64,000 nt of DNA. Origin: Alteromonadaceae bacterium (GTDB taxonomy: Bacteria; Pseudomonadota; Gammaproteobacteria; Enterobacterales; Alteromonadaceae). Below, one piece after another: positions 3,507-23,534 of this stretch. Position 1 is the stretch's first letter. Each line of letters starts with the position of its first letter. The stretch covers positions 1 through 64,000 of the forward strand of contig JALUXV010000161.1 of the NCBI GenBank assembly GCA_027013165.1, in the 5' to 3' direction. The notes beneath the pieces were generated by a model. The model did no database searches, was not told the DNA's origin, and saw only the letters and a list, made by a program, of their open reading frames with translations. The translations under genes and the position numbers were made by a program.

Positions 3507-4448
3507 TCAAAAATACTGCTCAGCTAAAGTATTGTGTATATCCGCAAAGTCTATTTGCAGCTCATCAATAAAGTTGGCCAACGACACTGTTACTATCTCT
3601 TTCACGTCGGATTCATCAATTTCACTGATGCTGTGCTCCACTCTTAACATCAAGTTTTCTGAGCGAGGTAGTTTAACAAGGTTGCGTTTGATCTCATTGA
3701 GGCACCAATATATTGAGCGAGGGAAGCGTTCGTCATAAATAACGAAATCTAATACATCGTTAGGTCTAACCCTTACCCCCATGCGTTGGCGGTACATTTG
3801 ATAGGCAGACAGTGAGTGTAAGACGCTAGTCCATTGGATATTTTTAAACGGCAACAAGTAGTCATCATCTTTCTCAATAGCACTTCGCACATCAATTATT
3901 CTAGATGTCATATCTGCGCGCTCTATTAATGAACCAATACGCCAAAAGTAAAAGCCATCGTCATGGCTCATCGTAGCCTCCATCGCCCCTAAAGTAAGTA
4001 GACAATGCTTTACCACTTTTTCCAAACTTTTAGACTGGCCACGCTTGGTTAGAAAATCGTTAGATGTTGCATCTATTTCTAAATCTAACTTGTTTACTAT
4101 CTCCCAAACTTCTTTTGGAACCACATCTCGCACAGTTCGCATATTACTACGCGCAGCCGAAATACAGTTGCGGATAGATGAAGGGTTACGCTTTTCAACG
4201 GTTAAGAATTTAATAACATTTTTTTCTGATGCGACTTGGTAGATTTCAAAAAACGCATCTCTTGCACCAATAATATCGAGTAAAGGTTCCCAACCTGGCG
4301 AGGCCTCTTTGGGTACATCCATGAGAAACAGGCTGTTGACATTAACCAATCGAGCAATGTTTTCTGCCCTTTCAACATACCGTGCAGTCCAATATAGTGT
4401 TTCAGCAACTCGTGACAACATACTCTTTTCTCCTACTCGACGATCCAA
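3507..4448 (-). CDS. Alpha-E domain protein (DUF403)
   Basis: MLSRVAETLYWTARYVERAENIARLVNVNSLFLMD is a typical alpha-E N-terminus; likely start at the MLSRVAE methionine; last gene of ATP-grasp/transglutaminase operon. Confidence 0.88.
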   Translation of the reverse strand: MDRRVGEKSMLSRVAETLYWTARYVERAENIARLVNVNSLFLMDVPKEASPGWEPLLDIIGARDAFFEIYQVASEKNVIKFLTVEKRNPSSIRNCISAARSNMRTVRDVVPKEVWEIVNKLDLEIDATSNDFLTKRGQSKSLEKVVKHCLLTLGAMEATMSHDDGFYFWRIGSLIERADMTSRIIDVRSAIEKDDDYLLPFKNIQWTSVLHSLSAYQMYRQRMGVRVRPNDVLDFVIYDERFPRSIYWCLNEIKRNLVKLPRSENLMLRVEHSISEIDESDVKEIVTVSLANFIDELQIDFADIHNTLAEQYF

Positions 4449-5902
4449 GTGTCTTTGCTTCCGCCCCCTTGGGAAGAATTCACAACGAGTGACCCCTTTA
4501 CCATTGCAACGCGAGTTAGTCCACCCGTAGTCACATAGGTTGAATCTCCAGATGAAAGCACAAAAGGTCTAAGATCAACATGACGAGGCGCAATACCCTC
4601 TTCTGTGAGCGTAGGTACAGTGGATAGTGATAGTGTAGGTTGTGCTATCCAATTTCTTGGATCCGCTTTCACTTGAGCTAGGGTTTCTTGTTGTTGCGCT
4701 TTCGTCGATTTGGGACCTATTAATAACCCATATCCACCGGATTCATTTGCCGGTTTGATCACTAAATCTGCGACATTTTTACAGACATAATCTAATTCAC
4801 TTTTGTTATCGCAGCGAAAGGTAGGCACATTGGGTAGTTTGGTTTCCTCCCCAAGATAATATTTAATCATATCAGGTACATAAGTATAAACCACCTTGTC
4901 ATCGGCTACCCCTGCACCTGGGGCATTAACTAAAGCCACCTTGCCTTTTTTCCACGCGCGTATCAACCCAGGCACGCCTAACATGGAGTCGGGATTAAAC
5001 GCTTCAGGATCAATAAACAAATCGTCAATCCTACGGTAGATTACGTCAACTCGTTTTGGCCCGTAAATGGTTTTCATGTAGACACAATCGTCAGATTCGA
5101 CGCTTAAATCACTCCCTTCTACCAATTCACAACCCATTTCTTGTGCAAGATAAGCATGCTCAAAATACGCGGAGTTATAAATACCAGGCGTTAAAACCAC
5201 AACTTCAGGTTTATCCATTGGGCGAGGAGTCATCGCTGTTAACATATCAAATAACTGAGACGGATAATCACTAACAGGAAGCACATTTATTTGGCCAAAC
5301 AACTCTGGAAAAACTCGCTTAATAATTGAACGGTTTTCCAGCATGTAAGACACACCCGATGGTACTCTTAGATTATCTTCCAATACATACATCACACCAT
5401 CGCCACCGCGCACTAAATCAGAACCACAAATATGTGCCCATATGTTTTTGGGTGGTGTAATTCCTATACACTGCTTTCGAAAGTTAACGGATTTACTTAG
5501 CAGCTCTGCTGGGAAGACTTTGTCTTTGACAATTTTTTGATCGTGGTAAATATCGTGAATAAAACAATTAAGCGCTTCAACTCTTTGTATCAAGCCTTGC
5601 TCTACTTGCTCCCACTCTTTCTTGTGAATAACTCTCGGGATAATATCTTGCGGCCATGCTCTATCAATGGTGCTTCCCTCACCGTAAACGGTAAAAGTAA
5701 TTCCCATCTCTTTAATCAATAGTTCCGCTGCATGTTGTGATGCATCAAGCTCAGCCTTCGATAAACTCGACAAATAATTCATCAAGTTTTTGGTTATCGG
5801 CCTCCCAGTTCTATCTGCATTAATATACTCATCATACAAGTTGTCATGTTGATAGTTTTCCCAATGAAGATCATGCGTTTGGGCCTGTGACTGATTTTTC
5901 AT
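4433..5902 (-). CDS. Circularly permuted type 2 ATP-grasp protein
   Basis: 489 aa; GITFTVYGEGSTIDRAWPQDIIPRVI, YVLEDNLRVPSGVSYMLENR, VIKPANESGGYGLLIGP motifs; overlaps the downstream alpha-E ORF. Confidence 0.9.
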   Translation of the reverse strand: MKNQSQAQTHDLHWENYQHDNLYDEYINADRTGRPITKNLMNYLSSLSKAELDASQHAAELLIKEMGITFTVYGEGSTIDRAWPQDIIPRVIHKKEWEQVEQGLIQRVEALNCFIHDIYHDQKIVKDKVFPAELLSKSVNFRKQCIGITPPKNIWAHICGSDLVRGGDGVMYVLEDNLRVPSGVSYMLENRSIIKRVFPELFGQINVLPVSDYPSQLFDMLTAMTPRPMDKPEVVVLTPGIYNSAYFEHAYLAQEMGCELVEGSDLSVESDDCVYMKTIYGPKRVDVIYRRIDDLFIDPEAFNPDSMLGVPGLIRAWKKGKVALVNAPGAGVADDKVVYTYVPDMIKYYLGEETKLPNVPTFRCDNKSELDYVCKNVADLVIKPANESGGYGLLIGPKSTKAQQQETLAQVKADPRNWIAQPTLSLSTVPTLTEEGIAPRHVDLRPFVLSSGDSTYVTTGGLTRVAMVKGSLVVNSSQGGGSKDTWIVE

Positions 5903-5915
5903 TTTAATATCCTTT

Positions 5916-6791
5916 TTATATTCTGGTCATATCAACAGAGACGGCCAATGTTTGAGCTCCCCCACCAAACAACAACCCTTTGAGTGGCGTTACGTCATAA
6001 AAGTCTCTTCCTACCGCTAACACAACGTGTTGTTCTTCCGGCTTGAGGTCGTTAGTAGGGTCGAAGTCCACCCAACCGAGAGTAGGCACAAATACAGAAA
6101 TCCAAGCATGGCTCGCATCTGCTCCTACAAGTTTTTGTTGACCGGGCGGAGGCAAAGTCTCGATATATCCGCTAACATAACGGGCGGATAACCCAATGCT
6201 TCTCAAGCACGCTAAAGCTACATGTGCAAAGTCTTGGCAAACGCCTTTTCTATGCTCAAAAACACGCTCAAGAGGCGTATCAATAGTGCTAAACTGCGGG
6301 TCAAACGTAAAATCTGTAAAGATTCGATGTATCAATTCTTCGCAAGCATCTAAGATCGAGCGATTTTTGGTAAACGACACCAGCGCATATTGCCGCATGT
6401 CGTTATTAAATGGAGTCAAACCAGTTGCTATAGCATATGGCATTGCATCTAAGTGCTCTTGGTCAGGAGGAAAACGCAATCCTTCTCTAATCGACTCCCA
6501 AGTAATCTGCTGTACTAAAAAATCCATTGTTGCAGGTTTCAGCACTTCCACTTCGCTTATGGCTTTCACTTCCATTACGGTGTGCTGTGTTGGCACTTCG
6601 AAAATTGTCACTAGATTATTAAAGCGATCTCTAATTTGCGTAGAGTAATCAGGCGCAGGCGAAATCACTAACCTTGATGAATGACAAATTTGCCTTGCGA
6701 AATTCACCGGCAAAAGCCGTGCGTGATTTTGTGTAAGCGATACCTCTTCACTGTACTCATAACGAGTTACATGCTCAATTTTATACTTCAA
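5916..6791 (-). CDS. Transglutaminase-like protein
   Basis: 291 aa; Bact_transglu_N-like start YKIEHVTRYEYSEEVSLTQNHARLLP, catalytic GVCQDFAHV Cys, SHAWISVFVPTLGWVDFDPTND His/Asp. Confidence 0.9.
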   Translation of the reverse strand: MKYKIEHVTRYEYSEEVSLTQNHARLLPVNFARQICHSSRLVISPAPDYSTQIRDRFNNLVTIFEVPTQHTVMEVKAISEVEVLKPATMDFLVQQITWESIREGLRFPPDQEHLDAMPYAIATGLTPFNNDMRQYALVSFTKNRSILDACEELIHRIFTDFTFDPQFSTIDTPLERVFEHRKGVCQDFAHVALACLRSIGLSARYVSGYIETLPPPGQQKLVGADASHAWISVFVPTLGWVDFDPTNDLKPEEQHVVLAVGRDFYDVTPLKGLLFGGGAQTLAVSVDMTRI

Positions 6792-9349
6792 GTCACGTCA
6801 CCTTCTTTGTGATTACTAGCAACAAATGACCTGTTCTGCTTAATCGCAGACTTGGTATGGGTAAAAAATTTAATATTCAATAAATCAGTATACGACTTGA
6901 GGCTTTGCCTCAGTCTGCTTACTAACTCAAGCAATTGGGTTCGTTGTTTCCCATTCGATGTACCACTATCACTCACTTCATTTAATTCTGTCAAATCAAT
7001 AATATGACAATCAGACTTTAGCTTTAGCAATGCTCTTTCTAGTGCATCCATACCATAGCCATTAAAGGCGCGAGGCAGGCAATAGGTTAACTGTTCAAGT
7101 TGGTCTATTTGATAAGCCAGCGATCTCGGGTAATCTTGAGTAGACACAAGAAGCTCTAATGCAGTACTTACACTTTGGTGCATTCTGTAACGACGTTTGT
7201 GCGTTACAGAGCTAACTTGACTTAACAGCAACATGTCTAAGTTTTCTCGTTGTGCTACTGAAGAAAGTTTGGGGCCGATAAGTAAACTAATGCCACCGAG
7301 TAAACTTTGTATGCGTTCAGTTCTAATACCCATCTCGAACATAAAGTCACCAGTATCCCGCGACAAAGAATCAGTCAGTGACCCCCTAAATGCCATTGCC
7401 AATGAAATAATGTTATCGATTAGCGACTGTAATATGTGAACACTACTGGCGTGATGAATATGAAAAATCTTGTCGTATTCACTCTCTAAATTTTCAAGAA
7501 TTCGCTGGCTATCGTAAGACAGTAGCTCTCTGATATTTTTAGCGCTTGTACAGGTTGCCTTCACTGTACTTGCCAGACTACCGAGTAACTGACTATCTGT
7601 AATGGTTCTATATGCCAAGGCTTTAAAAGATTGATAATCGGTAATAGTATTACTGTCGAGCGGTAAGCTACTTTCCCATTGAATGGATTCAAAGGGTGCT
7701 ATAAGTACTTGTTGCTCTAACCCCCAATTCATCAAATTCAAGGTCTGACTTACCTGCCCCTCAGGGTACATAGACCACTCGCTAAGCTTCTCCATGTATA
7801 CCCGCAGCAATCGACACAAGTTTTCAGTTCGTTCTACACTGGTACCCAAACTGAATAGGTTTTCAGCGGTTCGGCTGGAAATGTATCCCTCCAACAGCGC
7901 CATATCTAAAGTTTTAAGTACGCTTTTAGGTGGCTTAAATTTTTTCTCGGGTGTACTCGCCGTCTTATCACTAGCGACCCACGCATCTTTTATATGGGTC
8001 ACCTCTGTTTGTTTGGACAATTTATCTTGATTGACGGTAATACAAAGAGCCGATGGCAAAACGGTAACTTGATCTTCATGAACTAAGGCGAAAACCCTAA
8101 ACACAACCGGCTTTAACACTAGCTTGTCATCTCGCCAAAAGGGTATTTCTTTAAGATTCACTTTTTCTCTAAAAAATACGTTAGCTTTTGGCTGTTCCTC
8201 TAGTATTTTCTCTATTTCTTCAGCGTGTTTAGCGCCATCCAATCGCAATGAAGGATCGATATAGCTGCGAAGCTCAAATCGCGCCAAGTCGTTCATATCA
8301 ACATTTTCAGGAGCAAAACTTAATGGCTGCTTGATAATCAGTGCTTGTTGATTTAACTGCTGCGATATATGACCTAGTCGATTCTGAATGGCAGGTATTT
8401 GTAGGATACCAGCGCCATAGTTATTCAACATTTGAACATTGCCACTGCGAATGGCTTGAAGTAGCCCAGGCACACCCTGTTCTGAATATTCGGATTGCTC
8501 CAGTGAATCAAGATGCCTATCTTCAATCCATCGCAAAATAATATCGACTTTTTTCAGGCCATTGAGAGCCTTAATCCATACAAATCCCTGTCTGACGGTA
8601 AGGTCTGCACTTCGCACCAAGGTATATCCAAGGTATGTGGCCAAATAGACTTGTTCAGAATAATAAGGGTCTGAAGGGCCCTCGCTAAAAATAACCACCC
8701 GAGCGTCTGCATGTGGTGCGTGTTGCTCAACGGCATTACTCATATCTTGGAAAAAGCCAGCAATACGTTCTACATCACATTTAAAGAACTCATCGCTCAT
8801 GACTCTTCTAGACATGATTCGGTTTTCTAGTAGTAACCCCAAACCTCTCGGGAACTGACAATGGTCTTGAAGTGCGTAGATTTCACCGTCCTTAGATAGG
8901 CCAATATCTAATGCGACTACAAAAAGTGATGCATCAAACTGTGAGTAATCACTTTCGCCGAGGAAAAAAGGATGACCAAACAAACTTAAGCCATCTATGG
9001 AGTGATTCAAAATCAATGACTTAGTAGTGGTAATGTCTTGCAATACTTGATTGAGAAGATGAACTCGTTGTTCCAACCCCCTCGAAATATTAGACCATGT
9101 AGATTTATCAATAAGATGGGGAATAGGGTCTATCATCCACTTATCCCTCAAACTACCATCGATAAAGCCGTTGCTGCGCATCAATCGTTGAATTTCACTA
9201 CACCGAGCCAGTAAATCATCTTCGCTCAAACGACTCAGGTGACTGTACAACCTATGCTGCATTGGATTTTCGTCACTCATGTTTTGACGATTTAAATCAC
9301 AAAATGTCTCAAACCAGCCTGGGTTAGGCTGGGTGTGCTTTTCATTCAT
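6788..9349 (-). CDS. Fused circularly permuted ATP-grasp + alpha-E protein
   Basis: 853 aa; ATP-grasp-like N-terminus (YALQDHCQFPRGLGLLLENRIMSRRV...), C-terminal alpha-E (SSRTAENLFSLGTSVERTENLCRLLRVYMEKL); 4-nt overlaps with both neighbours. Confidence 0.87.
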   Translation of the reverse strand: MNEKHTQPNPGWFETFCDLNRQNMSDENPMQHRLYSHLSRLSEDDLLARCSEIQRLMRSNGFIDGSLRDKWMIDPIPHLIDKSTWSNISRGLEQRVHLLNQVLQDITTTKSLILNHSIDGLSLFGHPFFLGESDYSQFDASLFVVALDIGLSKDGEIYALQDHCQFPRGLGLLLENRIMSRRVMSDEFFKCDVERIAGFFQDMSNAVEQHAPHADARVVIFSEGPSDPYYSEQVYLATYLGYTLVRSADLTVRQGFVWIKALNGLKKVDIILRWIEDRHLDSLEQSEYSEQGVPGLLQAIRSGNVQMLNNYGAGILQIPAIQNRLGHISQQLNQQALIIKQPLSFAPENVDMNDLARFELRSYIDPSLRLDGAKHAEEIEKILEEQPKANVFFREKVNLKEIPFWRDDKLVLKPVVFRVFALVHEDQVTVLPSALCITVNQDKLSKQTEVTHIKDAWVASDKTASTPEKKFKPPKSVLKTLDMALLEGYISSRTAENLFSLGTSVERTENLCRLLRVYMEKLSEWSMYPEGQVSQTLNLMNWGLEQQVLIAPFESIQWESSLPLDSNTITDYQSFKALAYRTITDSQLLGSLASTVKATCTSAKNIRELLSYDSQRILENLESEYDKIFHIHHASSVHILQSLIDNIISLAMAFRGSLTDSLSRDTGDFMFEMGIRTERIQSLLGGISLLIGPKLSSVAQRENLDMLLLSQVSSVTHKRRYRMHQSVSTALELLVSTQDYPRSLAYQIDQLEQLTYCLPRAFNGYGMDALERALLKLKSDCHIIDLTELNEVSDSGTSNGKQRTQLLELVSRLRQSLKSYTDLLNIKFFTHTKSAIKQNRSFVASNHKEGDVT

Positions 9350-12300
9350 AGTCGAGGCGGTCTTCTCATATCAAGCGTACATGGATATTCTTCATTAGGC
9401 TGCTCTTCGGCTGGGACTGTAAAATCTATTCCCTGCTTACGTCGCCATTCCTGCATTTGCTCCGGCGACATAGCGTCTGTCGGTAGTTTGAGTTCGGGAG
9501 GCGTGTGGCCGTGCTCCCAAAATCTTGCCACGCGTCTACCCTCTGCCTCAAATGCATTCACCGGATAAGTGGTAAAATTGCGCCCACCTGGATGAGATAC
9601 GTGGTAGGTAAACCCGCCAATTGAACGTCCGCCCCATTTATCATAAACATCAAACACCAAAGGCGCGTGAACACCTATGGTTGGGTGCAGCGCAGAAGGG
9701 GGCTGCCATGCTCTAAAGCGAATACCAGAGACACCGTTGTCTCCAGTCGCATCATACTGAAGTGGCACTGCACGGCCGTTACAACTAATAACATATCGCT
9801 CTTTATTGGTATTCTTTACCGTCAATTGAACCCGTTCTAACGAGGAGTCGACAAATCGAGCCGTACCAGATGAAGACATTTCTTCACCAAGTACATGCCA
9901 AGGCTCAATAGCCGTATGCAGTTCAAGTGCGATGTCTCCCACTCGATGCATACCCGCCAAAGGAAAGCGAAACTCAAAGAAAGGAGCAAACCAATCAAAT
10001 TGAATCGCAAACCCAGCCCCTTGAAGTTGGCTTACCACATCTTTGATATCTTGTTTTACGTAATAGGGAAGCAAGAACTTGTCGTGTAATGCGGTTCCCC
10101 AACGCTTTAATTTGCCTTGGTAGGGGGTCTTCCAAAACCATACGAGTAGCGTTCTTAGCAGCAGCATTTGCATTAAGCTCATTTGTGCATGAGGAGGCAT
10201 TTCAAAACCTCTAAACTCTACTAAGCCTAATCTTCCAGTCGCCGAATCTGGGCTATAAAGTTTATCAATACAAAACTCCGCTCTATGTGTGTTACCAGTA
10301 AGATCAGTGAGTAAGTGCCGAAGCAAGCGATCTGCAATCCAGGGCTGATTTACCTCACCACTGGGAATTTGCGAAAACGCGATCTCTAGTTCATATAACC
10401 TTTCATCTCTGGCTTCATCGACACGGGGTGCCTGACTTGTTGGACCGATAAACATACTTGAAAACAGATAAGACAAACCTGGGTGATGCTGCCAAAACGT
10501 CACAAAACTTCTGAGCAAATCAGGTCGTCTGATAAAGGGGCTTTCGAGTACATGTGCTCCGCCCATGGTCACATGGTTCCCGCCACCTGTGCCGGTATGC
10601 TTACCATCATGCAAGAATTTTTCGGTGCTAAGACGTGATTCTCTCGCCAAGTCATAAAGGACGGAAATATTATTCACCAAGCTTCGCCAAGAGCTCATTG
10701 GATGAATATTCACTTCGATAACTCCGGGATCAGGAGTAACAGCAAACTTATTCACCCGGGAATCTGTAGGCGGGGTATAGCCTTCCAAAATCACTGAAAG
10801 ACCTGTGGCTTCCGCAACTTGTTCAATAGCGTTAAGCAAAAAGCCATAGTATTCAAAATTCTGTAGCGGTGGCATAAATACATAAAGATTACCCTGCCGC
10901 ACCTCGACGCACATTGCTGTCAATAATAGTGCGTCCCCAACATAGCCTTTTTGCGTTGAGGGAGTCTCTGGATAATCTTTGGGTATGTCAGTTGGGTCTC
11001 TATCTGGCTTAAACTCTCCATTACCGATACTTTTCAATGGTAGTCGATATCCCATTGGAGAATCACCAGGCACTAAGAAGCAGTGCTTTCGTCGAAACGA
11101 CCATCGACAACTCTGCCAACCACCATAAACTTCGTCAAAAGTGATGGGCAAAACAAATCCAACCGGCTTATCTAACCCTCGCTCAAGCTTAGCCAAGAAC
11201 TCCTGCCTAGACATGGCTTCCAACAGCTCTTCACTGTCGGGAGACGGATCGAGTTGCTCAGGTAAGTTACCTTCTTGCCATAAATGATAAAGAGCATCTT
11301 CATACGCCGTCACAACTGCCGACGAATCTATTCCGAGGCATTGCGAAAGCTTGCGAGAAAAAACCTCAGCATCAGAAGTGTTCACCTGACCAACTTGTGT
11401 AGGATCCGCTAACAGTGCTGCATTTGTCCATAGCGGCTGGTTATCCTTTCGCCAGTAGTGTGCATATTGCCAACGAGGTAGCGGCTCGCCAGGATACCAT
11501 TTGCCTTGCCCAAAATGACTAAATCCACCATGAGTATAAGTTTTGGTCATGCGCAGAAACAATGAATGTGCAAGCTTGCGCTTTTCTTCCCCATCGGCAG
11601 CAGTGTTCCATTGCTCGCTCTCCATGTCATCGATAGAGATAAATGTTGGCTCGCCGCCCATGGTGAGCTTGATTCCCTGAGCAGCCAGCTCAAGATCCAC
11701 AGCATCTCCAAGCTGCTGAATACTAGACCACTGGGCATCTGAATACGGTTTTGTAACTCTTGGTGGCTCGTGAAGTCGCCTAACCTCATTGCTATAAACT
11801 AGCTCGGATTCACAGGGATCTATGCCGCCACTGACAGGAGCTGCGCTAGAGGGTTCTGGAGTACAAGCAAGAGGAATGTGCCCCTCTCCAGCAAATAGTC
11901 CTGATGTTGGATCTAATCCTATCCACCCTGCGCCAGGCACATAAACTTCGCACCACGCATGCAGATCAGTAAAGTCTTTCTCTGGGCCACTGGGGCCATC
12001 AAGGTCTTTAACATCAGGTGCAAGTTGAACTAAATACCCCGAAACAAAACGTGCCGCCAAGCCAAGGTATCGAAAAAGTTGTACCAATAACCAAGATGAG
12101 TCTCGACAGGACCCGGACTTTAATTTGAGTGTTTCATCTGGTGTCTGAACACCAGGGTCTAATCGTATGTTGTAATTAATTAAGTCGTATACTTTTTGAT
12201 TGACTGACACTAAAAAGTCTACGGTAGAGGTGGGCTTTTCTGGTTTACATGCTTCTACTAATGAGAGTACATCCTGACCCACCTCATTGGTTTCCAAATA

Positions 12301-12648
12301 TGGAATCAAATCGTGTGAGGTTCTATCGTCGTAGTTGAACGGGAACTTTTCTGCGCTTTCATCCAAAAAGAAGTCAAAAGGATTAATCACTGTTAAATCA
12401 GCAACGACATCAACAGTAAAACTAAACTCTCTTGTGGGTTCAGGAAAAACCACTCGCGCCAAGAAATTCCCAAAAGGATCTTGCTGCCAATTAATAAAGT
12501 GATTTTCTGGTTTAATTTTCAGCGAGTGGCTGACAATAGGAGTTCTGGAGTGCGCCGCCGGACGCAACCTAAAAATATGGGGTCCCATATTGATTAGGCG
12601 ATCATATTTGTATTCGGTTTTGTGAGTAATCCCTACCCTAATTGTCAT
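9346..12648 (-). CDS. Transglutaminase-like + DUF2126 (putative amidoligase) protein
   Basis: 1100 aa; N-terminal transglutaminase with GSCRDSSWLL Cys and DLHAWCEVYVPGAGWIGLDPTSG His/Asp; DUF2126-like C-terminus incl. HTGTGGGNHVTMGGAHVLESPFIRRPDLLRS. Confidence 0.9.
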   Translation of the reverse strand: MTIRVGITHKTEYKYDRLINMGPHIFRLRPAAHSRTPIVSHSLKIKPENHFINWQQDPFGNFLARVVFPEPTREFSFTVDVVADLTVINPFDFFLDESAEKFPFNYDDRTSHDLIPYLETNEVGQDVLSLVEACKPEKPTSTVDFLVSVNQKVYDLINYNIRLDPGVQTPDETLKLKSGSCRDSSWLLVQLFRYLGLAARFVSGYLVQLAPDVKDLDGPSGPEKDFTDLHAWCEVYVPGAGWIGLDPTSGLFAGEGHIPLACTPEPSSAAPVSGGIDPCESELVYSNEVRRLHEPPRVTKPYSDAQWSSIQQLGDAVDLELAAQGIKLTMGGEPTFISIDDMESEQWNTAADGEEKRKLAHSLFLRMTKTYTHGGFSHFGQGKWYPGEPLPRWQYAHYWRKDNQPLWTNAALLADPTQVGQVNTSDAEVFSRKLSQCLGIDSSAVVTAYEDALYHLWQEGNLPEQLDPSPDSEELLEAMSRQEFLAKLERGLDKPVGFVLPITFDEVYGGWQSCRWSFRRKHCFLVPGDSPMGYRLPLKSIGNGEFKPDRDPTDIPKDYPETPSTQKGYVGDALLLTAMCVEVRQGNLYVFMPPLQNFEYYGFLLNAIEQVAEATGLSVILEGYTPPTDSRVNKFAVTPDPGVIEVNIHPMSSWRSLVNNISVLYDLARESRLSTEKFLHDGKHTGTGGGNHVTMGGAHVLESPFIRRPDLLRSFVTFWQHHPGLSYLFSSMFIGPTSQAPRVDEARDERLYELEIAFSQIPSGEVNQPWIADRLLRHLLTDLTGNTHRAEFCIDKLYSPDSATGRLGLVEFRGFEMPPHAQMSLMQMLLLRTLLVWFWKTPYQGKLKRWGTALHDKFLLPYYVKQDIKDVVSQLQGAGFAIQFDWFAPFFEFRFPLAGMHRVGDIALELHTAIEPWHVLGEEMSSSGTARFVDSSLERVQLTVKNTNKERYVISCNGRAVPLQYDATGDNGVSGIRFRAWQPPSALHPTIGVHAPLVFDVYDKWGGRSIGGFTYHVSHPGGRNFTTYPVNAFEAEGRRVARFWEHGHTPPELKLPTDAMSPEQMQEWRRKQGIDFTVPAEEQPNEEYPCTLDMRRPPRL

Positions 12649-12936: not shown

Positions 12937-15270
12937 ATGATCAACAACAAAATTGCAGAAGAACTCGCCGTCAGCGCATCACAAGTTGACGCGGCTATTT
13001 CACTACTAGACGGCGGCGCTACAGTTCCATTTATTGCGCGATACAGAAAGGAAGTTACTCAAGGACTAGACGACACTCAGTTGCGTCACCTAGAACAGCG
13101 TCTTACTTATCTGCGAGAGCTTGAAGACCGCCGTGGCGTTATCCTTAAGTCAATTGACGAGCAAGGCAAACTGTCTGATGCATTAAAGCAAAGCATTTTG
13201 AATGCAGACAATAAAACGTCTTTAGAAGACCTTTATCTTCCGTATAAACCACGTAGAAGAACGAAAGGACAAATCGCTATTGAAGCTGGCTTAGCGCCTT
13301 TGGCTGATGCGCTATTTGCCGACCCTGATTTAGATCCACAACTCGAAGCTGAAAAATTCATTGATACAGAGAAAGGTGTAAACGACACCAAAGCAGCACT
13401 AGATGGCGCACGCTATATTTTGATGGAACGCTTTGCCGAAGATGCAGGGCTACTGGGCAAGATTCGTAACTATTTAACCAATAATGCCGATTTAGTCGCT
13501 ACCGTGGTGCAAGGTAAAGAGCAGGAAGCCGTTAAGTTTAAAGATTATTTTGCTCACACCGAGCCATACAAAAAAGTGCCTTCTCACCGTGCACTTGCCA
13601 TGTTTAGAGGCCGTAACGAAGGTGTGCTGCATATCCAGTTAGACGCTGATCCGAACAACGAAGACAACACAGCGCCATCCCATTGTGAGCATTTAATTGC
13701 GGAGCATTATGATATTAAGCATCGCAATCGCGCCGCTGATAATTTTCTGAAGCAAGTGGTGCAGTGGACATGGAAAATCAAAATTGCGCTGCATATGGAA
13801 ACTGAGTTGTTCAGTGCCCTTCGCGAACGCGCAGAACAAGAAGCCATTGACGTATTTGCCAAAAACTTGAGTGATTTGTTGATGGCAGCCCCCGCCGGTG
13901 CAAAGACAACCATGGGTTTAGACCCGGGTTTACGTACTGGTGTGAAGGTTGCCGTAGTTGATAAAACCGGTAAAACCGTGGCGACGAATACGATTTTCCC
14001 TCATGCACCGCAAAATCAGTGGGAAAAGTCGAAGCGAACGCTTGCCACACTTTGCAAACAATACAAAGTGGAGCTTATCAGTATTGGCAATGGCACTGGC
14101 TCTCGTGAAACCGACAAGCTGGTTGCCGAGCTATTAAAGGCGGAAGATGGCGTTAACGCTCAAAAAATCATGGTTAGCGAAGCTGGCGCCTCGGTATATT
14201 CTGCTTCAGAGCTAGCTTCTAAAGAGCTTCCAGACCTTGATGTATCGCTACGTGGCGCTGTATCAATTGCCCGTAGACTACAAGATCCCCTTGCCGAGCT
14301 TGTTAAAATTGAGCCAAAGGCCATTGGCGTTGGCCAATATCAACACGATGTGAGCCAAAGTTTACTTGGCAAATCACTCGATAGTGTCATCGAAGACTGT
14401 GTAAACGCGGTGGGTGTAGATTTAAATACCGCATCGCCCGCATTGTTAAGCTATGTATCAGGCCTAAACAAAACCCTAGCCCAAAACATTGTTCACCACC
14501 GCGACACAAATGGTGCATTTAGCGATCGTAAAAAGTTACTTAAAGTAGAGCGCTTGGGGCCAAAAGCCTTTGAACAAGCGGCGGGCTTCCTTCGCATTGT
14601 GGGTGGCACCAACCCGCTAGATGCCTCTGCTGTTCACCCAGAAGCTTACCCAGTGGTAGACAAAATCGTGGATACCACTGCAGTTGCAGTAAACGACTTA
14701 GTAGGTAACTCGGCGTTATTGAAATCCTTATCGCCAGACACCTTCGCCAACGACGAGTTTGGTGTGCCTACGGTAAAAGATATCTTAAGCGAGCTGGACA
14801 AACCGGGACGCGACCCACGCCCAGAGTTCAAAACTGCGGCGTTTAAAGATGGCGTAGAAACCATCAGCGATATTAAGCCAGGAATGATCCTAGAGGGCGT
14901 GGTGAGTAACGTTGCCAATTTTGGTGCGTTTGTGGATGTAGGCGTACATCAGGACGGACTGGTTCACATTTCTGCCCTTACCAACAAGTTTATTTCAGAC
15001 CCTCGTGAAGTGGTTAAAGCCGGTGACATTGTAAAAGTGAAGGTGCTTGAAGTTGACGTTCAGCGCAAGCGTATTTCATTTACCATGCGTTTAGATGATA
15101 CACCGCAAGCCAGCAAGCAACATAATGGTGGTAAAAAACCGGCTAATAGCGGCAAGCAGAGTGCGAAGAGCCATCAGGGTAAACGTGGTGGAAACCGTGC
15201 TTCAGAGCCACAAAACAGCGCTATGGGTAATGCATTTGCCGATGCTTTTGCCAAAGCAAAAACTAAATAA
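12937..15270 (+). CDS. tex: Tex / YhgF family RNA-binding transcription accessory protein
   Basis: [50 protein letters not shown]..., C-terminal S1 domain; internal ATG preferred to the upstream ORF start at 12868. Confidence 0.93.
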
Positions 15271-18352: not shown

Positions 18353-19270
18353 GTGGCCACCGCTAATTTACTTGCTCTTCTTGATGATATCGCCACTTTG
18401 ATGGATGACATTGCTACCCTAAGTAAAGTTGCTGCACAAAAAACCGCAGGTGTCTTAGGTGACGACCTTGCCGTGAATGCGGATCAGGTTCGGGGGGTAA
18501 AGGCGGACAGAGAACTCCCCGTTGTCTGGGCTGTCGCTAAGGGCTCTTTGCTCAACAAAGCTATTTTAGTACCCGCAGCTTTAGCCATCAGCGCCTTTGC
18601 TCCTTCGCTAATAACTGTGTTGTTGGTGTTAGGTGGATTGTATTTATGCTTTGAGGGCGCTGAAAAGTTATTGCATAAATATTTGCCCCACGAGGACGAA
18701 GTTGAATCAAGGGAAGCACGAATAGAAGCGTTAGCACAAGATGATGTGGATATGGTTACCTTTGAAAAAGATAAGATCAAAGGAGCTATTCGCACCGACT
18801 TTATTCTCTCTGCTGAAATTATCGTCATTGCATTAGGTACGGTTAGCGACGCTACTTTAACCACACAAATTGGTGTGTTAGTCGCCTTGAGTTTAGCCGT
18901 TACCTTGGGCGTTTACGGTCTTGTTGCGGCATTGGTAAAAATGGACGATGTGGGTTTGTACATGTTACGAAAATCATTAACTGGCACCATGAATGGTTTT
19001 CAAAGAGTGGTTGGCCGAAGCTTACTCGTAGCAGCACCCGCATTAATGAAAACGCTGGCGGTTGTTGGCACGGTTGCCATGTTTTTGGTCGGCGGTGGTA
19101 TTTTAACTCATAGCATTGGCATGCTACACCATGTATCAGACTGGTTTGTTGCTATTGCACCAAGCTATTCACTCGTTATGTCAGTTGTGGCAGATGGTGT
19201 TGTTGGCATAGTTGCCGGAGCTATAATCGCAGTCATAGTGAGCGTCGGGTCAAAACTGAGAATGCGATAA
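18353..19270 (+). CDS. DUF808 family inner-membrane protein (GTG start)
   Basis: LLALLDDIATLMDDIATLSKVAAQKTAGVLGDDLAVNADQVRGVKADRELPVVWAVAKGSLLNK is DUF808-like; multiple TM segments. Confidence 0.87.
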   Translation: MATANLLALLDDIATLMDDIATLSKVAAQKTAGVLGDDLAVNADQVRGVKADRELPVVWAVAKGSLLNKAILVPAALAISAFAPSLITVLLVLGGLYLCFEGAEKLLHKYLPHEDEVESREARIEALAQDDVDMVTFEKDKIKGAIRTDFILSAEIIVIALGTVSDATLTTQIGVLVALSLAVTLGVYGLVAALVKMDDVGLYMLRKSLTGTMNGFQRVVGRSLLVAAPALMKTLAVVGTVAMFLVGGGILTHSIGMLHHVSDWFVAIAPSYSLVMSVVADGVVGIVAGAIIAVIVSVGSKLRMR

Positions 19271-19376
19271 AATTCTTTCTTGACGATAAAAATTTGTCAT
19301 TTTCTTTTCTTGTGTAATGTGCGTAAAACAGCGCTTAGTTTTTACATCAACACTCGAAAATTAGGCGAATTTGGCA

Positions 19377-20822
19377 ATGGCCAAAACACTTATAGTGGTA
19401 GATCAAGCGCACAGCTTACCTTCCATTGAAAATACAATTGAATTCTCTAGATATCTGGCAGAATTTCCGAAACTTCATGAGCCAAAAACTCGCATAATCA
19501 ATCTATGCGATACCGACAAGTATCTCAGTCATGGATACTATTGCTCGTTGCTGGCCGAAGCCAGACAACACCCTGTGATGCCAAGTGTCAGTACCATCAA
19601 TGATCTAGCTGAAGCCTCTAACCTAGAGGGGCAGGTGATTATTACACTTCCCATTGCTTTAACTAAATCGCTGAAAAGCACTTCGCATCGAATTAGCGTG
19701 TATTTCGGTTGGACCGCTATACCGGCCTACCAGAAGTTGGCGAAATATTTGTTTGCCCAATACCCAACTCCAATTCTTCAAGCGAATGTTTTTCAGCGTG
19801 AAAGTAACTGGTACGTCTCGTTGGAAACCCCATGCTATCAAGACTTGCAAAGCGAAGAGCTGACAATTTTTATAGAGCAGCTTAAGGTGTTCACGCAAAA
19901 AATTTGGCGAAGTCACAACCGTAAAGCCTTTCGCTGGGATATGGCAATTCTTGTGAACTCACAGGAAAAAACGCCACCAAGTGACCGCCTTGCACTCAAT
20001 AAATTTGTCAAAGCGGCAGCTCAGGTAGGCATTAATGCCGAATTAGTCAGTGCTGAGCACATAGGCCAGCTTGACCGCTATGACGCATTGTTCCTGCGCG
20101 AAACAACAGCTATTAAAAGCCATACGTATAAGTTGGCCCGACAAGCTGAGCAAGAAGGCTTGGTGGTTATTGATGACCCCCAATCTATTTTGCGCTGCTG
20201 CAATAAGGTGTTCCTGCACGATGCTTTCAGTTATCACGGTGTACCGTCACCCAAAACAGAGTTTGTTTCTGCCGCTAATGACACTGTAATCAACACTATT
20301 GAAAAGCAGTTTGGCTACCCTGTAGTACTTAAACTGCCGGAAAGTTCTTTCTCACTCGGCGTGTACAAAGCCCAAGATAGAACAGAGCTTGTCAATAGGT
20401 TGACCCAATTGCTGGACGAGTCAGCTTTGGTGTTGGTACAGGAGTACCTGTATACAGAGTTTGACTGGAGAATTGGCGTGCTAAATGGTCGAGCCCTTTA
20501 TGCGTGTCGCTATCACATGGCGCGTAATCACTGGCAAATATACAACCACGGTGCTAAACGAAACGTGTCGGGTGACTTTGACACCCTGCCAACATTTGAA
20601 GTACCAAGGGCGGTACTTAATGCAGCGACTAAGGCTTGTGAATTTATCGGCAACGGTTTGTACGGCGTAGATATCAAGCAACGAGGTGACGATGTGTTCG
20701 TTATCGAGGTGAATGATAATCCCAGTATTGAACATAAGGTTGAGGACAAGTATCTGGGTGACGAATTATACATGCAGATCATGCAAGTCTTTGTCGAACG
20801 ATTGGAAGGTAGAGGGAAGTGA
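19377..20822 (+). CDS. RimK-like ATP-grasp family protein
   Basis: Central RimK-like ATP-grasp: YPVVLKLPESSFSLGVYKA, VLVQEYLYTEFDWRIGVLNGRALYACRY, VFVIEVNDNPSIEHKVEDKYLGDELY. Confidence 0.88.
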   Translation: MAKTLIVVDQAHSLPSIENTIEFSRYLAEFPKLHEPKTRIINLCDTDKYLSHGYYCSLLAEARQHPVMPSVSTINDLAEASNLEGQVIITLPIALTKSLKSTSHRISVYFGWTAIPAYQKLAKYLFAQYPTPILQANVFQRESNWYVSLETPCYQDLQSEELTIFIEQLKVFTQKIWRSHNRKAFRWDMAILVNSQEKTPPSDRLALNKFVKAAAQVGINAELVSAEHIGQLDRYDALFLRETTAIKSHTYKLARQAEQEGLVVIDDPQSILRCCNKVFLHDAFSYHGVPSPKTEFVSAANDTVINTIEKQFGYPVVLKLPESSFSLGVYKAQDRTELVNRLTQLLDESALVLVQEYLYTEFDWRIGVLNGRALYACRYHMARNHWQIYNHGAKRNVSGDFDTLPTFEVPRAVLNAATKACEFIGNGLYGVDIKQRGDDVFVIEVNDNPSIEHKVEDKYLGDELYMQIMQVFVERLEGRGK

Positions 20823-21952
20823 ACCAAGCAAGCCCAAATGTTCCCATGGAGCCTTTGATGGAGTGTCGTGATGCGGATATTACTGACTTAGCAGCCTTGG
20901 TTTCGTTGGAAAATCGTGCTTTTAGCTCAGACAAACTCAGCAAGCGTCAGTTTCAATATTGGCTTAAAGCATCCAACAAAGTTTTTCTGGTAGCAGTTTC
21001 TCCGGACAAGCGCATTGTAGGCTATGGCTTGGTTATCATGCGTAAAGGCACGCGTCTGGCGAGACTTTACTCGATTGCCATAGATCCACAATGTCATGGG
21101 ATAGGCTTAGGTTGTCGTCTGTTACAAGAGCTTGAGCAGCGTACTTTGGCCTTCGAGAAGCTATTTATGCGCCTAGAGGTATCAAAAACTAACGATGCCG
21201 CTATACGGCTATACAAACGTATGGGCTATCGGGTATTTGGCCATTACCCACACTATTATGAGGACGAGTCTGACGCTTTGCGAATGCAGAAAGCCATTCA
21301 CAATAACGGTGGTGGTAGGGTTTTTCAACCGTATCCTTGGTATCAACAAACCACAGAGTTTACTTGCGGCCCCTCTGCGTTGATGATGGCCATGGCGAAA
21401 CTGCAACCGGAAATGACATTTTCCCAGGAACTTGAATTAGATGTATGGCGAGAGGCTACCACAATATTTATGACCTCTGGCCATGGTGGTTGTCATCCTA
21501 TCGGATTGGCATTAGCTGCTCAAAAGCGAGGATACAAAACAGCGGTGTACATGAATCAGTCGCCGCCACTATTTACCAACAGTGTGCGCAGCGAGCGTAA
21601 GAAGCAAATTTTAACCTTGGTAGAGCAGCAGTTTGTGCATCAAGCAGAACTCAAAGAAGTGAAACTACATTTCGACGAGATCAATCTGGAAATAATAGAA
21701 AAGGCAATATCTCAAGGTGCGACCATAATTAGTTTAATAAGTACCTATCAGTTTGATGGCAATAAAGTGCCCCACTGGGTCACGATAACAGCGGTAGATA
21801 AGCACTATTTATATCTACATGACCCAGATTTAGATACCGAAAAAGACCTTCCGGTTGATTGCCAGCATATACCTATTGCCAGAGAGGATTTTACCAGGCT
21901 GTCTAGCTATGGCAAAGCGCGTTTGCGAACCGCTGTATTTTTGTATAACTAA
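20819..21952 (+). CDS. GNAT acetyltransferase + C39-like cysteine peptidase fusion
   Basis: N-terminal GNAT (ARLYSIAIDPQCHGIGLGCRLLQELE, AIRLYKRMGYRVFGHY); C-terminal peptidase-like TTEFTCGPSALMMAMAKL, HWVTITAVDKHYLYLHDPD; GTG start overlapping stop of preceding gene. Confidence 0.87.
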   Translation: MNQASPNVPMEPLMECRDADITDLAALVSLENRAFSSDKLSKRQFQYWLKASNKVFLVAVSPDKRIVGYGLVIMRKGTRLARLYSIAIDPQCHGIGLGCRLLQELEQRTLAFEKLFMRLEVSKTNDAAIRLYKRMGYRVFGHYPHYYEDESDALRMQKAIHNNGGGRVFQPYPWYQQTTEFTCGPSALMMAMAKLQPEMTFSQELELDVWREATTIFMTSGHGGCHPIGLALAAQKRGYKTAVYMNQSPPLFTNSVRSERKKQILTLVEQQFVHQAELKEVKLHFDEINLEIIEKAISQGATIISLISTYQFDGNKVPHWVTITAVDKHYLYLHDPDLDTEKDLPVDCQHIPIAREDFTRLSSYGKARLRTAVFLYN

Positions 21953-21964
21953 GCGAGTGATTTT

Positions 21965-22747
21965 ATGAACAATACCCATCAAAACACAGTTGAAGTTACT
22001 GTATTGGCAGACAAAGTTCAACTTAAGCTTATTGAGAAAGCTTTGGACAAGCGCGTGTTTTCACAGCGCTACAAAGATGTTTTATTCATTGGCTACCCAA
22101 AATCATTTACGTACATATTTGACTATGGTGCCGTAGTATTTTGGTCTGTTACTGAAGAACGCAAAGCGTATCTGTTGGATATTCTGAAAACCAATTCGCA
22201 GCTGCACGACGAACTGCACACAGAAGTATTCCCATACCGAGTAGAAGCTAGTGCAACCGTAACCATGTTAGACGACGAAATTCTGATCAATGCAAAAGAA
22301 CAGCGCGACCTTTTAGCCATTAGCCATGCATTAGCTCAGTCGGCAAAACTAGAGCAATTTGAAAGCCGAGCAGAGCGTACCATTAAAGATAATGCTTACT
22401 TATCTGCGAGCTTGGCTAAAACGGGTAAAATCCCACTTTCGCGTAAAGAACTGGCGAAACTCAGAGGAAATTTATTCAAAACAAAAAGCGATATCTTGCT
22501 TCACTACAGTTTACTCGATACGCCCGACTTTTTCTGGCAGAACCCTGACTTGGAATCAATTTATCAAGCCTTGGCCAAATACCTAGAATTGGTTCCACGG
22601 GTCGAATTGCTGACGTTGAAGCTCGAAACAATTCATGAACTATTGGAGATGCTAGCAGCTGAGCAAAACCATAAGCACTCGGCCTTTCTAGAGTGGATTA
22701 TTATTATCTTGATAGCCGTAGACATCGCTGTTTACTTTGGCCATTAA
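21965..22747 (+). CDS. RMD1/DUF155 family protein with C-terminal TM helix
   Basis: FIGYPKSFTYIFDYGAVVFWSVTEERKAYLLDIL; LEMLAAEQNHKHSAFLEWIIIILIAVDIAVYF. Confidence 0.8.
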   Translation: MNNTHQNTVEVTVLADKVQLKLIEKALDKRVFSQRYKDVLFIGYPKSFTYIFDYGAVVFWSVTEERKAYLLDILKTNSQLHDELHTEVFPYRVEASATVTMLDDEILINAKEQRDLLAISHALAQSAKLEQFESRAERTIKDNAYLSASLAKTGKIPLSRKELAKLRGNLFKTKSDILLHYSLLDTPDFFWQNPDLESIYQALAKYLELVPRVELLTLKLETIHELLEMLAAEQNHKHSAFLEWIIIILIAVDIAVYFGH

Positions 22748-22784: not shown

Positions 22785-23534
22785 CTACTGAGGCCGCGTT
22801 TTCCATTGGTGAATGGCATTGTTGAGTTGCTCAATGAAAAGCCTATTGGTGCTATTGTCATGGCACACAAATGCTTCGCGCGAGGTATGGATAGGTCTGT
22901 CTTTTCGGAACTGCGGAATAGGGAGTCGTAAACTCTGGGCAGCGCCATGAATATCAACAAGGTAACTAATTACAGCATCCACACGTCCAAGGGTTAAGAA
23001 TTGTAAAACAGTAGCGTCATCGTCTAATTCTATGTAATTCGCCGGAAAGGATTGGCGAATGCCACCATAGCTAAATCCGCGACGGATACCTATTCTTGAC
23101 GCTTCATTAAGCTCAGCTAAAGGTTGTTCCTCTACTGTGAAGATATAAGCATTGGTGACTGCGAGTGGATGACTTTCTAGCAAGGTATCTTTTTCCAGTA
23201 TGGTTTCTGTACTGGCAGGGAAAATGCAGTTCAGATAGTCTTTGTAAAACTCAACTTCGACCCGACTTGGGGGCATAAACACCACATCTATGTTGTCTAA
23301 CGTTGACAAAAAACGATTGTACAAACCTTCCGGTGCAGGAGGTTGTGTTAGGGTATTGGCTATTTCTGAAACCGCGATGGTGTAACGCTCGTCACTTTTC
23401 GCAGCCGAAGTCGTTGTAAGGGCAAATAGTAATATCCCAAGCACTGCTGATTGTATACTTTTCACTACTTGCCATTCTCCATAGAATCTAGCGCACTGAC
23501 ACTTAACGTATAAATGGCCACATATAAATAGCAT
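22785..23534 (-). CDS. Periplasmic substrate-binding-like protein
   Basis: Signal-peptide-like region, SBP family-3-like fold residues (LNEASRIGIRRGFSYGGIR, VLQFLTLGRVDAVISYLVDIHG); true start may be GTG near 23468. Confidence 0.65.
   Translation of the reverse strand: MLFICGHLYVKCQCARFYGEWQVVKSIQSAVLGILLFALTTTSAAKSDERYTIAVSEIANTLTQPPAPEGLYNRFLSTLDNIDVVFMPPSRVEVEFYKDYLNCIFPASTETILEKDTLLESHPLAVTNAYIFTVEEQPLAELNEASRIGIRRGFSYGGIRQSFPANYIELDDDATVLQFLTLGRVDAVISYLVDIHGAAQSLRLPIPQFRKDRPIHTSREAFVCHDNSTNRLFIEQLNNAIHQWKTRPQ

Follow-up and report, generated by a model that had tools for sequence, protein, structure and literature searches.

A conserved gene unit of an RLAN ATP-grasp ligase and a RimI-like acetyltransferase with variable peptidase partners: a candidate system for acetyl-capped peptides

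In a 64,000-nucleotide (nt) stretch of DNA from a marine Alteromonas-type bacterium (Alteromonadaceae, contig JALUXV010000161.1; hereafter the window), a RimK-like ATP-grasp ligase with an RLAN domain is encoded next to a RimI/Ard1-like GNAT acetyltransferase fused to a DUF3335 (papain-like, C39-like) peptidase, and a DUF155 gene follows. Comparison with other genomes showed that the true unit consists of the ligase and the GNAT, and that the C39-like domain is an optional add-on, since the GNAT stays beside the ligase while C39 comes and goes. We propose, with a probability of about 45%, that these genes encode a system of peptide ligation and acetyl capping that includes its own hydrolases; its product would be a free acetylated peptide.

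The linkage of the two genes was assessed in a sample of 399 genomes spread over the phylum. DUF3335 was found in 58 of them, RLAN in 72 and both in 57, so that RLAN was present in 57 of the 58 DUF3335 genomes (Fisher p about 1e-53, phylogeny ignored). The two genes lay within 4 kb of each other in 55 of the 57, and the pairing that a preliminary description had seen in this DNA is thus conserved across genomes. Their arrangement varied: among co-directional pairs, GNAT-C39 came first in 28 and the ligase in 6, while 18 pairs were divergent and 3 convergent. A single inherited operon order thus does not account for the linkage, and the changing arrangement argues for selection on proximity. 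Named genomes, scanned with an alignment, held at least 591 such places, with the top matches coming from Pseudoalteromonas, Alteromonas, Alcanivorax, Marinomonas, Microbulbifer, Methylobacter, Kiritimatiellota and other groups; a scan with a single sequence gave no relative.

Fifteen RLAN genomes of the phylum sample had no DUF3335 anywhere. In genomes with RLAN and without DUF3335, a free-standing GNAT of the same kind adjoins the ligase. Overall, nearly all fetched loci have a GNAT gene next to the RLAN ligase, even where C39 is missing genome-wide; the one clear exception fetched was L123, in which the GNAT-C39 gene lies on another contig. On a tree of 116 ligases, built by a quick method and with some long branches, the C39 label changes about 10 times, and at least 9 of these changes are forced by well-supported branches. 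The GNAT can even be fused to the front of the RLAN-ATP-grasp in a single protein of 656 amino acids (aa; locus L096).

These losses bear on an N-terminal maturation of the cut-and-cap type, in which the C39-like domain would cleave, the fused GNAT would acetylate the new N-terminus, and the ligase would act separately on the same target. Such a scheme is suggested by the way in which a papain-like peptidase is fused to a domain resembling N-terminal acetyltransferases; the animal actin maturation protease and NAA80 follow this logic (PMC11465159), and microviridins unite ATP-grasp ligation, leader removal and N-acetylation (PMC13039773). However, C39 has been lost repeatedly while GNAT and ligase remained together, and its cleavage therefore cannot be needed for GNAT action. 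Moreover, no precursor is linked: as the preliminary description had noted for the vicinity of these genes, no small precursor-peptide open reading frame (ORF) was present, and none was conserved in the flanks of about 150 loci. We consider such a maturation unlikely.

The RLAN domain of the ligase, N-terminal to the ATP-grasp, scored 127.5 bits (cut-off 25) and the RimK Pfam profile 41.1 (cut-off 21). Residues K279, K321, D365, R367, D434, E446 and N450 were invariant in 38 sequences. The ATP-grasp residues are conserved, although a diverged group, of which L047 is typical, departs from the pattern. The confident structure model (predicted local distance difference test score, pLDDT, 87.0) had ArgX/LysX, Ddl and RimK as its nearest folds, with template modelling scores of about 0.7-0.8 by target length. 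For the RLAN domain, sequence comparison gave no homologue with a solved structure. With the curated RimK profiles, however, the ligase remained under the cut-off (TIGR00768 rimK_fam, 82.7 versus 143.4; PRK10446, 36.7 versus 331), and the RimK region DFRSNLHRGG is replaced by HWQIYNH...SGG. By score and by substrate loop, the ligase is not RimK, and glutamylation of ribosomal protein S6 is not the default expectation for an enzyme so far under the curated cut-off. The diverged ligases (L047 and L054-L057) sit on a branch of 4.41, have an altered ATP-grasp end motif and a divergent GNAT, and may have a different activity.

As for the origin of the ligase, no fetched relative was more than 60% identical to it, and it fell outside the group of its genus-mates on the ligase tree. 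The tex gene of the window is 79-83% identical to same-genus genomes, and by this measure the window belongs to its genus. The pair has a different gene neighbourhood in G031, G106 and G487. A likely origin is horizontal gain or an old paralogue.

The nearest solved structures for the GNAT domain were RimI and Ard1, with which it has the catalytic-region motif LEV...N..AI.LY...G in common. Glu120 and Tyr132 were conserved in the alignment of relatives; we take them to be the counterparts of the catalytic pair of RimI. The protein stayed just under the cut-off of the RimI profile TIGR01575 (82.0 versus 86.4; 84.7 in the genome search), and a separate housekeeping RimI is encoded elsewhere in the same genome (121.1). 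No match above the rimK_fam cut-off was found in this genome, an absence that the fragmented assembly makes uncertain.

The peptidase part matched the DUF3335 profile with 293.6 bits (cut-off 25) and contains the motifs CGPSAL, HWVTITAV and HDPD, on which the preliminary description had relied. Proper alignment left its catalytic Cys and His intact: in two alignments Gln177, Cys183 and His319 were invariant in all relatives, and Asp335 was kept in 27 of 30 and 56 of 56 sequences, the three exceptions being Glu. From the conserved residues in all three, the ligase, the GNAT and the peptidase are predicted to be active. A fold search with the model of the GNAT-DUF3335 protein, also a confident one (pLDDT 90.7), was filled by GNAT structures. 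Among solved structures DUF3335 had no significant sequence match, only insignificant ones to C39 and BtrH_N chains. These matches leave some room for the C39-like domain being an acyl- or aminoacyl-transferase, as BtrH and phytochelatin synthase are, which would pass the product to an acceptor. Papain-like folds also include transferases, and DUF3335 has been placed near Guanylate_cyc_2 (PMC10318531), to which it gave a weak profile match here. Nevertheless, the full Gln/Cys/His/Asp set fits a hydrolase equally well and no carrier protein is linked, and we hold a transferase to be quite improbable.

DUF3335 also occurs in other settings. L122, from a genome without RLAN, has a stand-alone DUF3335 gene (7120-7821) followed by a pyridine nucleotide-disulphide oxidoreductase gene; L124 has two extra copies without a RimI-like GNAT (4633-5694 and 13689-14897), the first of them near a gene for an extracellular solute-binding protein; and the profile also matched in the control genome of Methanosarcina acetivorans.

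Within the window, the four ORFs of the preliminary description were all present, each with the expected Pfam match (Table 1). Also as described there, the ligase and GNAT-DUF3335 genes overlap by 4 nt (GTGA, 20819-20822), which suggests translational coupling, and the DUF155 gene begins 12 nt further on. From the ligase alignment, the ATG at 19377 is the more likely start rather than the TTG at 19371. The DUF808 gene, which had been counted as a member of the cassette, is a chance neighbour 100 nt from the ligase: none of 150 related loci carries it, and the same holds for the other flanking genes of the window.

Table 1. Features of the window discussed in the text
Feature	Position	Strand	Pfam match	Remark
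Circularly permuted ATP-grasp / Alpha-E / transglutaminase / DUF2126 amidoligase cassette	3507-12648	minus		
Circularly permuted ATP-grasps	4433-5902 and 6788-9349	minus		
DUF808 protein	18353-19270	plus	2e-104	neighbour, judged outside the cassette
RLAN + RimK-like ATP-grasp ligase, 483 aa	19371-20822	plus	RLAN 4e-37, RimK 2e-10	
RimI/ARD1-like GNAT (residues ~14-160) + DUF3335 papain-like/C39-like peptidase (~172-375), 377 aa	20819-21952	plus	GNAT 3e-14, DUF3335 9e-88	
DUF155 protein (RMND1/Sif2-Sif3/Mrx10 family) with C-terminal hydrophobic segment	21965-22747	plus	5e-48	accessory, recurrent partner
249-aa protein	22785-23534		none	beside the M14 carboxypeptidase
M14 zinc carboxypeptidase, 867 aa	23503-26106	minus		just past DUF155

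Only DUF2817 and DUF155 stood out as conserved neighbours of the pair; others (DUF520, short-chain dehydrogenases, response regulators and more) occurred in only 2-3 of 123 loci each and look incidental. DUF2817 is also a match to the M14 carboxypeptidase profile. In 14 of 80 named loci (Methylococcaceae, Alcanivorax, Porticoccus and others) its gene overlaps GNAT-C39 or lies directly next to it, with an overlap of 4 nt in several loci. Of the 25 phylum-sample genomes having both, 15 had DUF2817 no more than about 3 kb from the pair. The DUF155 protein of the window scored 164.1 bits (Pfam cut-off 27) and its C-terminus reads FLEWIIIILIAVDIAVYFGH. The association of DUF155 with the pair, raised in the preliminary description, recurs elsewhere: in 15 of the 22 genomes having both, many of them from one family, the distance is no more than about 3.5 kb, and DUF155 neighbours the pair or one of its two genes in L035, L087, L093, L098, L125, L129, L148, L160, L166, L177 and L198. 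The order ligase, GNAT-C39, DUF155 is found again in L129, L148, L177 and L035, and L198 holds ligase, GNAT-C39, DUF2817 and DUF155 together.

In the system that we propose, the RLAN/ATP-grasp enzyme would activate a carboxylate with ATP and form a peptide (amide) bond, and the RimI-like GNAT would acetylate the alpha-amine of the ligase's partner, an amino acid or a short peptide. The product, a putative small acetylated peptide, would be cut or recycled by the C39-like cysteine peptidase, where this is fused to the GNAT, and in other genomes by the DUF2817 M14-type carboxypeptidase; the logic would be like that of the N-acetylglutaminylglutamine amide (NAGGN) pathway. DUF155 would be an accessory, probably membrane-attached partner. 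We infer that the enzymes share one substrate, act in this order and yield a free peptide and not a protein tag. This proposal is favoured by the close linkage of the genes in varying order, the constancy of the GNAT beside the ligase and their fusion in L096, the conserved catalytic-region residues of ligase, GNAT and peptidase, the recurrence of peptidase partners, the lack of a precursor ORF in the loci examined, and the precedents of NAGGN and N-acetylaspartylglutamate synthesis. On chemical grounds, an acetyl cap would fit a free peptide better than a chain on a protein C-terminus, because the new amines on such a chain go into bonds. The synthesis, capping and removal of a peptide modification, as proposed in the preliminary description, is still the best, if tentative, reading of a linked ligase, acetyltransferase and peptidase, with the C39 step being optional.

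Several points weigh against a free peptide. The nearest structures of the GNAT, RimI and Ard1/Naa10, acetylate protein N-termini, which would suit a protein or a longer peptide. The NAGGN profile TIGR03103 gave 22.9 against a cut-off of 569, with no match above the cut-off in the genome, and the pair has no linked amidotransferase. In addition, the DUF155 link points to translation or membranes and not to a metabolite, and no experimental function (substrate or product) of the unit was reported in the literature searched.

The main alternative, possible if doubtful, is a reversible protein modification in the style of RimK/RimB, in which amino acids would be ligated to a protein, a protein N-terminus acetylated by the GNAT and the tag removed by the C39-like and M14-type peptidases. 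The target would perhaps be ribosomal or linked to translation, with DUF155 tying the system to ribosomes or the membrane. The ATP-grasp is nearest to RimK and LysX/ArgX, which act on protein C-termini, and the GNAT to RimI and Ard1; DUF155 is the family of RMND1, which is listed among the mitochondrial translation disease genes (PMC5203842); RimK/RimB and Rlo systems likewise combine an ATP-grasp with a protease (PMC12239564). However, the ligase departs from RimK in score and substrate loop, as given above, no conserved ribosomal gene lies beside the pair, and just 22 of the 72 RLAN genomes have DUF155. A four-part system of ligase, GNAT with or without C39, DUF2817 and DUF155, in which an acetylated peptide or protein tag would be the partner of the RMND1-family protein at the ribosome or membrane, seems improbable; if true, it would give a bacterial handle on the role of RMND1 in mitochondria.

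Two further candidates were rejected. A cluster for ribosomally synthesized and post-translationally modified peptides (graspetides) is not supported, with no linked precursor and recurring small ORFs that look like known small genes or antisense frames, and no PADLOC model of a known anti-phage defence system matched at E 0.01. The preliminary description had also drawn attention to two ATP-grasp systems within 10 kb. They do lie near each other, with a gap of about 10 kb from the circularly permuted ATP-grasps to the ligase, but the two cassettes are unrelated and no meaning of their proximity is supported: the linkage was seen in none of the other loci, most of whose fetched stretches reach only about 7-9 kb from the pair. 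Neither the M14 zinc carboxypeptidase past DUF155 nor the 249-aa protein was linked to the pair in other loci.

The ligase family occurs in nearly a fifth of the sampled phylum genomes, and with GNAT and ligase constant and the peptidases variable, the unit could lead to an acetylated peptide metabolite or a protein modification that is new. The recurrent link to DUF155 could help to clarify a conserved family with ties to mitochondrial disease. Among known systems, NAGGN biosynthesis (AsnO/Ngg and a peptidase, PA3459-PA3461) likewise has N-acetylation, peptide ligation and a peptidase in one operon; Ngg acetylates one glutamine and joins a second (PMC8070244). It differs in having an amidotransferase, whereas the system described here has an RLAN domain and falls under the cut-off of the NAGGN family profile. 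The synthetase of N-acetylaspartylglutamate, a RimK-like enzyme, couples glutamate to an N-acetylated amino acid (PMC7866086). With RimK (the S6 glutamate ligase)/RimB and LysX/ArgX, the ligase has the ATP-grasp fold and the ATP/Mg residues in common, but it carries the extra RLAN domain and another substrate loop, and its protease is of another type. RimI and Ard1 (Naa10) are alike in fold and catalytic-region motif, whereas the GNAT here is fused to DUF3335. In the Rlo system of Pseudomonas (RloA protease, RloB, RloC ATP-grasp) an ATP-grasp is also linked to a protease (PMC12239564), but that protease is aspartic and secreted, and there is no GNAT. The same domains, an RLAN (PF14401) ATP-grasp and a GNAT-DUF3335 (PF11814), appear in the amidoligase survey of Iyer et al. 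2009, as represented in the papers citing it, and PMC10318531 describes DUF3335 as often fused to GNAT. The domains and their fusion are therefore already described, while the dispensability of C39 and the links to DUF2817 and DUF155, which were not found in the open literature searched (Iyer et al. 2009 through citing papers), seem to be new within it. The ligase-GNAT unit lends itself well to experiment but is not a new kind of system.

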